From: Ideonella sp.
GTDB lineage: Bacteria > Pseudomonadota > Gammaproteobacteria > Burkholderiales > Burkholderiaceae_C
Direction of reading: 5' to 3'
NCBI GenBank assembly: GCA_015075545.1
Contig: JABTUC010000001.1
Span: forward strand, 806,001-870,000
DNA length: 64,000 bases
This document shows positions 38,631 through 41,380 of this stretch, in pieces. Position 1 is the first letter of the stretch; each line of letters starts with the position of its first letter. The notes beneath the pieces were generated by a model. That model was not told the origin of the DNA. It ran no database searches and saw nothing but the letters and a program-made list of their open reading frames with translations. Position numbers and translations under genes: made by a program.

Positions 38631-39770
38631 TCAGAACAGCACGGCCTGACCCGGCTGCGCCGACGGCCGCCTGAACCGCGTGAGGTCGAGCTCGAAGTGC
38701 CTGCACCCGAAGCCGAGCCTGGCGCTGGCCTTGTCGAAGCGCTGGCGGATCAGTTGCGCCCAGATGCCGGTGCCACTCATTCGCGAGCCGAAGCGCGGAT
38801 CGTTGTCCTTGCCGCCGCGCATCTCGCGCACGCGCGCCATGATGCGCTCGGCACGCTCGGGCACGTGCTGCTGCAGCCACTGGCGGAACAACGGGCTTAC
38901 CTCCCACGGCAGGCGCAGCACGATGCTCGATGCTGCCGCGGCTCCCGCGCCGCGGGCCGCCTCGAGGATGCGCTCGAGCTCGTGCAGGTTGAGGAACGGA
39001 ATCATCGGCGACACGCTGACGCCCACCGGCACGCCGGCGCGGGCCAGCGTTTCGATGGTCTTCAGCCTGCGGTGCGGTGCAGCCGCCCGCGGCTCGAGCG
39101 TGCGCGCCAGTTGCGGATCGAGCGTGGTGATCGTGACGTAGACGGCCACCAGTCGCTGCGGCCCGAGCGGCGCGAGCAAATCGAGGTCGCGCTCGATGCC
39201 GGCCGACTTGGTGAACAGCGAGAACGCGTGGCGGCACTCGGCGAGCACCTCGATGATCGAGCGCGTGATCTTCAGCCTGCGTTCGACCGGCTGGTAGCAA
39301 TCGGTGGCCGACCCGAGGTTGAGCTTCATCGGCACGTAGCCCGGCCGGGCCAGCGCCTCGCGCAGGCGCTCGGCGGCGTTGACCTTGGCGACGATGCGCG
39401 TCTCGAAGTCGATGCCCGGCGACAGGTTGAGGTAGCCGTGGGTGGGCCTCGCGTAGCAGTAGATGCAGCCATGCTCGCAGCCGCGGTAGGGATTGACCGA
39501 CAGGTCGAAGCCGATGTCGGGCGAGTCGTTGCCGGTGAGGATCGACCTCGCCTGCTCCTCGATCACCTGCGTCTCGGGACGAAGCGGTTGTTCGTGGGCC
39601 TCCTGGTCGAGCGTGCCCCAGCCGTCGTCGAAGGCCTCGCGCTGCTCGGCGGCGAAGCGGTGCTCGATGGCCCATGACGTGCCGCGGCCCTTGACGGGCG
39701 CGAACACGAGCGGGGCCGCGGCGGACGGCTTGCCCGCGACGGATCCGCAACCTCCGGGGCTGCGCGGCAT
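38631..39770 (-). CDS. PA0069-family radical SAM protein, SOS-box associated
   Basis: 379-aa radical SAM enzyme. The [4Fe-4S] ligands are C98, C102, C105 (C-x3-C-x2-C in NPYRGCEHGCIYCYARP). Other family landmarks are KGRGT near residue 27, SPGIDFETRIVAKVN, NLGSATDCYQPVERRLKITR and the C-terminal MSGTGIW. The family is distantly related to spore photoproduct lyase and its reaction is not established. A perfect LexA-type box ends one base before ATG 39770, leaving no room for a Shine-Dalgarno, so the mRNA is probably leaderless and DNA-damage inducible. GTG 39707 is a possible alternative start. Downstream of dnaB on the same strand. Confidence 0.9.
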   Translation of the reverse strand: MPRSPGGCGSVAGKPSAAAPLVFAPVKGRGTSWAIEHRFAAEQREAFDDGWGTLDQEAHEQPLRPETQVIEEQARSILTGNDSPDIGFDLSVNPYRGCEHGCIYCYARPTHGYLNLSPGIDFETRIVAKVNAAERLREALARPGYVPMKLNLGSATDCYQPVERRLKITRSIIEVLAECRHAFSLFTKSAGIERDLDLLAPLGPQRLVAVYVTITTLDPQLARTLEPRAAAPHRRLKTIETLARAGVPVGVSVSPMIPFLNLHELERILEAARGAGAAAASSIVLRLPWEVSPLFRQWLQQHVPERAERIMARVREMRGGKDNDPRFGSRMSGTGIWAQLIRQRFDKASARLGFGCRHFELDLTRFRRPSAQPGQAVLF

Positions 39771-39771
39771 A

Positions 39772-39787
39772 CTGTAAATTTATACAG
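39772..39787 (-). promoter_or_regulatory. Perfect LexA (SOS) box, CTGT-N8-ACAG
   Basis: CTGTATAAATTTACAG on the minus strand fits the LexA consensus CTGT-N8-ACAG exactly, with an all-A/T core inside GC-rich DNA. It overlaps the predicted -10 of the radical SAM gene and ends one base before its start codon, so bound LexA would block initiation. Confidence 0.8.
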
Positions 39788-39805
39788 CTACCCGCCTGCC
39801 GTCAA
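39774..39805 (-). promoter_or_regulatory. Predicted promoter of the radical SAM gene
   Basis: Read on the minus strand: TTGACG (39805-39800), then within the SOS box either TATAAA after 15 bases (39784-39779) or TAAATT after 17 bases (39782-39777). Either -10 places the start site at or within a few bases of ATG 39770, giving a leaderless transcript. Confidence 0.55.
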
Positions 39806-39823
39806 GCGAAGCCCTCTGGGCTG

Positions 39824-41230
39824 TCAGTATTCGGCTTCGCTCGCTCCCACCGCCAGGTTGTCGAAGCGCGTCAGCGGCTTCTGGAAGGTGAGCTTCAGCG
39901 TGCCCACCGGGCCGTTGCGCTGCTTGCCGATGATGACCTCGGCGACGCCAGGCTCCTTGGAGTCCTTGTTGTAGTAGTCGTCGCGGTAGATGAACATGAT
40001 GACGTCGGCGTCCTGCTCGATGGCGCCGGACTCCCGCAGGTCGCTCATCAGTGGCCGCTTGTCGTTGCGCGACTCGACGCTGCGGTTGAGCTGCGACAGC
40101 GCCATCACCGGGCACTGCAGCTCCTTGGCCAGCGCCTTCAGCCCGCGCGAGATCTCGCCCAGCTCGGTGGCGCGGTTCTCGTCGCTGCCCGCCGAGCCGC
40201 TCATCAACTGCAGGTAGTCGACGACGATCAGCCCGAGCGTGCCGCCGAACTGGCGCGCCATGCGCCGCGCCCGCGCCCGCAGCTCGGCAGGGTTGAGCGC
40301 CGGCGTCTCGTCGATGAAGAGGCTGACCTTGCCGAGCCGGTCGACGGCCTCGGTCAGCCGAGTCCATTCGTCGTCCTTCAGCGCCCCGGTGCGCAGGTGC
40401 TGCTGGTCGATGCGGCCGAGCGATCCGACCATGCGCACGGCCAACTGCGAGGCGCCCATTTCCATCGAGAACACCAGCACCGGCAGCTCTTCGTGCACGG
40501 TGACATGCTCGGCGATGTTGAGCGCGAGCGCGGTCTTGCCCATGCTCGGCCGCGCAGCCAGCACGATCAGATCGCCCTTCTGCAGGCCGGCGGTGTAGCG
40601 GTCGAGGTCGTAGAACCCGGTGCGAACGCCGGTGACTTCTTCGGCGCCGTTCTCGTGCAGCTCGGTGACGCGGTCGATCAGCTCGACCACCAGCTTGTCC
40701 ATGCCGACGAAGCCCTGCTTGGTGCGCGCGCCCTCCTCGCCGATCTGGAAGATGCGCGACTCGGCCTCGTCGAGGATCTGCGACACCGGCTTGCCCTGCG
40801 GATTGAACGCCTGCGTCGCGATCTCGTCGCTGGCACCAATGAGCTTGCGCAGCACCGCACGCTCGCGAACGATCTCGGCATAGCGGCGGATGTTGGCGGC
40901 GCTCGGCACGCTCTGCGCCAGCGCGTTCAGGTAGACCAGCCCGCCGCAATCGGCCGCTGCGCCCAGGCTCTGCAGGTGTTCGTGCACCGTCACCACGTCG
41001 GCCGGCTTGCTGGCGCCGACCAGCGCGGCGATCGCGCTGTAGATCTGCCGGTGCTCGTAGCGGTAGAAGTCGCTCTCGCCGAGCAGGTCGGCGGCACGAT
41101 CCCACGCGAGGTTGTCGAGCAGCAGGCCGCCGAGCACGCTTTGCTCGGCCTCGATCGAGTGCGGCGGCACGCGCAGGCGTGCCACCTCGTCGTCGACCGT
41201 ACCGATTGGCTGCTGGAACACCGCGGACAT
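39824..41230 (-). CDS. dnaB: Replicative DNA helicase DnaB
   Basis: 468-aa hexameric helicase at the replication fork. The N-terminal domain starts VPPHSIEAEQSVLGGLLLDN; the RecA-like motor has Walker A ARPSMGKTALAL, VFSMEMG, the Walker B region LGLIVVDYLQLM and the motif EISRGLKALAKELQCPVMALSQLNRSVE. Normal length and complete. ATG 41230 is well placed; sequence further upstream in frame is not DnaB-like. It follows the rpsF operon on the same strand but is separated from rplI by a strong terminator. Confidence 0.98.
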   Translation of the reverse strand: MSAVFQQPIGTVDDEVARLRVPPHSIEAEQSVLGGLLLDNLAWDRAADLLGESDFYRYEHRQIYSAIAALVGASKPADVVTVHEHLQSLGAAADCGGLVYLNALAQSVPSAANIRRYAEIVRERAVLRKLIGASDEIATQAFNPQGKPVSQILDEAESRIFQIGEEGARTKQGFVGMDKLVVELIDRVTELHENGAEEVTGVRTGFYDLDRYTAGLQKGDLIVLAARPSMGKTALALNIAEHVTVHEELPVLVFSMEMGASQLAVRMVGSLGRIDQQHLRTGALKDDEWTRLTEAVDRLGKVSLFIDETPALNPAELRARARRMARQFGGTLGLIVVDYLQLMSGSAGSDENRATELGEISRGLKALAKELQCPVMALSQLNRSVESRNDKRPLMSDLRESGAIEQDADVIMFIYRDDYYNKDSKEPGVAEVIIGKQRNGPVGTLKLTFQKPLTRFDNLAVGASEAEY

Positions 41231-41325
41231 GGGTCGATGATAGACCGCGGGCGAGCACGCCCCTGTGGGCAGCCCTGTGGAAAGGCGCTGCACAAGCAGT
41301 GGGGAAGCGGCCTCGGCACCGGACA

Positions 41326-41352
41326 CAACAAAAGGGCCGGCAGAGCCGGCCC
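41326..41352 (-). terminator. Rho-independent terminator after rplI
   Basis: On the minus strand GGGCCGGC, a TCT loop, GCCGGCCC, then TTTTGTTGT. This is the clearest intrinsic terminator in the window: a perfect 8-bp GC stem followed by a T-rich run. It begins 28 bases after the rplI stop and separates the ribosomal operon from dnaB. Confidence 0.9.
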
Positions 41353-41380
41353 ATTCTCGACGCACAGCGAACGATCGGCG

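Follow-up and report, generated by a model that had tools for sequence, protein, structure and literature searches.

PA0069 belongs to the SOS regulon of Pseudomonas aeruginosa, and Rv2578c belongs to the mycobacterial SOS regulon. We know of no established reaction for the PA0069 family of radical SAM proteins. More has been published on SplB-like genes. In excerpts of one regulon study, LexA control of splB was predicted in alpha- and beta-Proteobacteria (PMC3323433), and excerpts of a second source tie SplB-like enzymes to SOS-related operons (PMC3765255). Archaeal SplB-like genes adjoin nreB, whose product NreB has a possible PCNA-binding PIP motif, and deletion of NreA, which is related to NreB, causes mitomycin C sensitivity, according to the accessible part of PMC4929162. 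The accessible part of PMC2897130 also describes the lexA gene of Mycobacterium tuberculosis as leaderless.

The window analysed here, a stretch of 64,000 nucleotides from Ideonella sp., encodes a radical SAM protein of 379 aa on the minus strand (38631..39770). This protein matches the NF033668 rSAM_PA0069 profile over its full length (456.6 bits, cut-off 360), which places it in the PA0069 family, and it also matches PF04055 (58.4 bits). A LexA operator, CTGTATAAATTTACAG in the minus-strand reading (39787-39772) and CTGTAAATTTATACAG in the plus-strand reading (39772-39787), precedes the gene. Its core is A/T at 8/8 positions, and a single base (39771) separates it from the start codon ATG (39768..39770, minus strand), whose A is position 39770. 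These coordinates confirm the description given in the initial annotation, namely CTGT-N8-ACAG with an A/T core one base before the ATG. When 39700-39900 was scanned for consensus promoters, one sigma70-like promoter was retrieved, TTGACG-17-TAAATT (39805-39777; mean 0.0 in 50 shuffles). The -35 element TTGACG, already annotated upstream of the box, was found at 39800..39805 on the minus strand, a position shared by 5/5 own-genus loci. The -10 element TAAATT (39777..39782, minus strand), separated from it by a 17-bp spacer, lies wholly inside the box, in agreement with the claim that -10 hexamers are available only there. A CTGT-N8-ACAG operator thus lies over the promoter, as in the LexA (SOS) regulon of the beta/gamma type. 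Assuming a six-base discriminator, transcription would start at 39770, the A of the ATG. We consider it about 75% probable that the gene is repressed by LexA, has a leaderless mRNA and encodes a radical SAM enzyme that acts on DNA and is probably tethered to the clamp.

The palindrome could instead be a product of chance, with the gene outside LexA control. The bare box pattern is expected 0.63 times per window and occurred at least once in 48 of 100 shuffles, and the whole genome contains 5 perfect sites versus 7 for the reversed control. By itself, the pattern is weak evidence and is not significant in the window or in the genome. Chance is exceeded because of the 8/8 A/T core, the position in a promoter and the conservation of the box. 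The protein is encoded in 36 of the 60 genomes searched, the window's own included, and the 30 loci fetched from that search comprised 24 with a perfect box, two with one mismatch and four with none. After duplicate removal, 71 loci were reduced to 61. Five of them (L047, L048, L058, L060 and L067) were fetched only by the box pattern and are biased towards the box, so box counts were limited to the other 56; the tree, dnaB and start-codon counts given below take these five in. The 56 unique loci from protein searches contained 46 perfect boxes, four with one mismatch and six without a box, and 80 named loci contained 55, 13 and 12, respectively, several of the 13 one-mismatch boxes being doubtful (e.g. 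L122, L157 and L169). Loci with at most one mismatch were found in Burkholderia (4), Duganella (2), Variovorax (4) and Pseudomonas (6). Among the named loci, those of Rhodanobacter (2), Dyella and Frateuria had no such box upstream.

A search for the box in close relatives, the check proposed with the initial annotation, found it in 5/5 own-genus genomes that encode the protein, among them the genome of the window. A sixth own-genus genome, G003 (82% complete), gave no match to the radical SAM gene. The best 30 loci of a 398-genome phylum search, which represent few families and are probably from Alphaproteobacteria, were also inspected. GTTC-N7-GTTC, the alpha-proteobacterial form of the LexA box, was present upstream in 21 of the 29 readable loci, L192 having been left out. 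The operator is therefore kept upstream of most orthologues examined, as in genes of the LexA regulon. Taken alone, the counts in the window and the genome are compatible with a chance palindrome, but we reject it on conservation (at most one mismatch in 50/56 and 68/80 loci, and the alpha-type box in the further loci), and the regulon prediction excerpted above (PMC3323433) also argues against it. We regard it as highly improbable.

LexA control had been proposed from the consensus, and other parts of the genome are consistent with it. The genome encodes LexA (222.9 bits, cut-off 110.95), and the HTH of this protein agrees through LGFRSPNAAEEHL, recognition helix included, with solved LexA structures, which we take to be those of E. 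coli LexA; such agreement is expected if the boxes form its regulon. Perfect boxes were found before imuA (NF033429, 186.4 bits, cut-off 150; C1:1059431) and before a dnaE2-like gene (C8:36296). The latter aligned with the PRK05672 error-prone polymerase model with 839 bits over the 658 residues present in the locus, the cut-off of 939 applying to the whole protein. These two genes are on different contigs of the genome (G000), each with its own perfect LexA box. Upstream of lexA there are two one-mismatch boxes, and upstream of recA there is one. The cores of the two remaining perfect palindromes (C1:644227 and C8:283088) are mixed, and both sites are probably due to chance; the one at C8:283088 lies partly within the end of a 244-residue ORF. 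Together with the conservation in orthologues and the published splB prediction, the LexA protein, its HTH match and the boxes at imuA, the dnaE2-like gene, lexA and recA support the proposed control, and the radical SAM gene is likely to be a LexA target.

The contact between operator and start codon is itself conserved. In 299 genomes of the family, CTGT-N8-ACAG-TATG was detected at 123 places in 91 genomes, some of these places being one palindrome read twice, versus about 11 in the reversed control. A protein match was obtained in 207 of the 299 genomes. Among the 150 best-listed family orthologues, to which the comparison with the pattern was confined, 51 had box-T-ATG just upstream, in frame in 51/51, and all 51 fell within the 80 most similar of the 150. 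At least two more fused cases, L063 (G026) and L058 (G318), lie below this list. Across 141 loci, a start codon of any kind follows the box after one base in 52, and it is ATG in 52/52, four of these loci having been fetched through a pattern that contains ATG. A quick tree built from 139 proteins grouped most fused loci in a single clade (SH-aLRT 93, not starred). Its 52 rows comprised 48 fused loci, two with a gap of two and two without a box; leaving out L047, L048 and L060, the fused loci were 45 of 49. The named rows of this clade are Rubrivivax, Azohydromonas, Roseateles, Paucibacter and Rhizobacter, and the upstream region of Aquincola L098 duplicates that of clade member L044. Fused loci L028/L134 and L058 were placed outside the main clade.

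No box was detected by the criteria used in clade members L071 and L094. L094 retains the ATG and the N-terminal peptide MRHDRTIKL, like its box-bearing relatives L041 and L042. Outside the fused loci, the box often still ends in ACAGTAT, the ATG lying further on, so the ATG may have arisen inside an extended LexA half-site. The fused geometry is not unique to the radical SAM gene and also arises at another SOS gene. Thirty loci were fetched by pattern, and 15 of them hold the radical SAM gene (14 fused and L067 not). In L053 (G130:C202; 1081-1503, minus strand), box-T-ATG precedes UmuD (NF007621, 154.5 bits, cut-off 110), and in L039, L043, L059 and L065 in-frame ORFs of 69-307 aa follow the pattern. 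In L050 (G135:C107), 12 bases separate a LexA-like box from a 355-aa ORF that follows it on the opposite strand and by eye is integron-integrase-like.

On the minus strand of the window, the gene order is rplI, dnaB and the radical SAM gene. The replicative helicase gene dnaB was assigned with the NCBIfam DnaB models and by adjacency. Its ORF (39824..41365, minus strand), whose true start is probably further in, has its stop at 39824, and the box lies 36 nt downstream of it. A hairpin around this stop codon (39795-39855; -24 kcal/mol, z -1.79) ends just before the -35 element, and no terminator was called in the window between dnaB and the box. Same-strand dnaB was found upstream in 36 of the 141 loci. 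The gap between box and start codon is one base in 34 of these and two or three bases in the other two. Upstream dnaB was found in 0 of 64 wider-gap loci and in 0 of 18 boxless loci among the 141, and 18 loci with a gap of one base had no dnaB within the fetched DNA. Adjacency to dnaB is thus common and not required.

This arrangement bears on whether the mRNA is leaderless. In 33 of the 141 loci, a co-directional dnaB lies at a distance of 17-103 nt from the box; no terminator was called between the two in the window, and 26 of 40 fused loci have no TTG at offset -18 from the box. These observations would suit a gene that is regulated by the LexA box and transcribed from an upstream start or by read-through from dnaB, with LexA as a roadblock and translation from the same ATG without a Shine-Dalgarno (SD) site or from an internal start. 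However, the -35 signal peaks at the sole offset from which the T-A-W-A-T-T of the box is reached with a 17-bp spacer. TTG occurs at -18 in 14 of 40 fused loci and in at most two at each of the remaining offsets between -60 and -3 (background 27 in 2280; naive binomial 2e-17, the rows being related). Once the own genus was removed, 9 of 35 fused loci had it; among the fused named loci it was present in 3/12 and missing in 9/12. The exclusive use of ATG one base after the box also speaks against a start elsewhere, as does the coding character of the stretch between the fused ATG and KGRG, the first conserved motif. In 37 fused loci this stretch comprises 760 codons with GC1/2/3 of 0.759/0.622/0.80, and stops number 0/6/6 by frame, the in-frame count first. 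An SD-like 4-mer was found at one of the 43 internal candidate starts and is missing at the other 42, and 12 of the 37 loci have no alternative candidate start in this stretch. We consider a leadered mRNA unlikely. The leaderless promoter proposed in the initial annotation is supported by this comparative evidence and by promoter geometry, with transcription predicted to start at the A of the ATG.

The enzyme carries the CX3CX2C cluster motif (C98, C102 and C105; 39456..39479, minus strand), which is invariant in 31/31 aligned orthologues. Spore photoproduct lyase (SPL) uses a catalytic hydrogen-donor cysteine. In the 31 aligned orthologues, no fourth invariant cysteine was found beyond the three cluster cysteines, which disfavours the hydrogen-donor step of SPL; a conserved donor cysteine of the SPL type is thus lacking by conservation among these orthologues, as distinct from residue alignment to SPL. 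The predicted model has a mean pLDDT of 78.8, low at the N-terminus and in the last residues. In a fold search of the PDB, SPL entries were six of the top seven matches, all remote (12-13% identity, TM 0.45-0.53), and C140 mutants of SPL were among the matches. This ranking of a predicted model is consistent with the distant kinship to SPL that had been suggested for the protein. A single-protein sequence search of the PDB gave no match, and a profile search of the PDB retrieved nothing beyond partial matches to radical SAM proteins and a single superoxide dismutase (E 1.7). From SOS control and this resemblance we infer a role in DNA damage, to which a clamp-like tail adds.

This tail, QAVLF (38634..38648, minus strand), resembles peptides that bind the beta sliding clamp. 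In the accessible part of PMC11139829, the clamp consensus is QL(S/D)LF and the canonical form Q-phi-x-[L/M]-[F/L], which the window protein fits with Ala at position 2. Among PA0069-family orthologues, which the tail counts cover, 136 of 139 unique full-length proteins have Q-x-x-[LMIF]-[FLMW] among their last 14 residues (0.55% in shuffles), and 128 of the 139 have it at the very end. It is also present in 29/29 readable further loci, often as QLSLF. The motif may nevertheless be a structural or turnover signal. Position 2 is Gly in 63 of 136 tails, a residue that weakens clamp peptides (PMC11139829, same excerpts), and the stricter clamp form fits only 56 of 139 orthologues and 13 of 51 in the fused group. 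On the other hand, Q, L and F are fixed at the extreme C-terminus past a linker of variable length, the last model block, tail included, has a mean pLDDT of 57, and QLSLF, QLTLL and QLMLL all occur in the further loci. We give a structural or turnover function an appreciable chance, well short of even, and consider docking on the clamp the more probable role of the tail.

In undamaged cells, LexA would occupy 39772-39787 and cover both the -10 element and the start point of the sole nearby promoter match, so that the radical SAM gene would be off. LexA could also stop read-through from dnaB. When RecA inactivates LexA, RNA polymerase would bind TTGACG-17-TAAATT and start at the A of the ATG, and ribosomes would translate the resulting leaderless mRNA in the absence of a Shine-Dalgarno site. 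The encoded radical SAM enzyme, whose fold is predicted to be SPL-like, would most likely act on damaged DNA, and its C-terminal QAVLF would probably dock it on the beta sliding clamp. More tentatively, and with somewhat less than even confidence, the PA0069 family may consist of SOS-induced, clamp-tethered enzymes whose task is to reverse, at the fork or behind it, a DNA lesion that blocks replication. A leaderless switch of about 20 bp, combining operator, -10 element, start point and ATG and usually placed behind dnaB, would then be the simplest and fastest form of control in the Rubrivivax-related clade. The conserved tail and SOS control point to DNA as the substrate and hint at where and when the enzyme acts. 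The fusion is a naturally occurring example of a single 20-bp stretch that would have to accommodate repressor, RNA polymerase and ribosome at once, and the fused gene lends itself to the study of leaderless translation in the Gram-negative SOS response.

In the open-access literature, we found no match for PA0069 together with LexA and SOS or for Rv2578c together with LexA, and we came upon neither a conserved operator/-10/start-codon fusion nor a clamp motif in a bacterial SplB-like or radical SAM protein. The closest solved fold to the window protein is that of spore photoproduct lyase (PDB 4fhc and mutants), from which it differs in sequence (12% identity) and in that the hydrogen-donor cysteine is not conserved across the PA0069 family (31 orthologues). 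Archaeal SplB-like/NreB pairs offer a suggestive parallel, since there too a SplB-like gene is linked to a sliding clamp. However, in the excerpts of PMC4929162 the clamp motif is on the neighbouring protein and the clamp is PCNA, whereas in the present case the enzyme itself bears the motif-like tail. The lexA gene of M. tuberculosis is likewise an SOS gene in which transcription and translation begin at one place, as given in the excerpts of PMC2897130. It is a different gene in a different phylum, and the operator touching the start codon is the feature seen here. The splB gene of PMC3323433 is the nearest regulatory counterpart, since this SplB-like gene also has a promoter with a LexA site, which in beta-Proteobacteria reads CTGT-N8-ACAG. 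That work predicts regulons in multi-chromosome genomes, its splB may not be an NF033668 protein, and the portion of it accessible to us makes no mention of a fusion, a leaderless mRNA, dnaB adjacency or a clamp motif. LexA regulation of the radical SAM gene is therefore largely known in kind, and what most deserves specialist attention is the conserved fusion together with the clamp-like tail.
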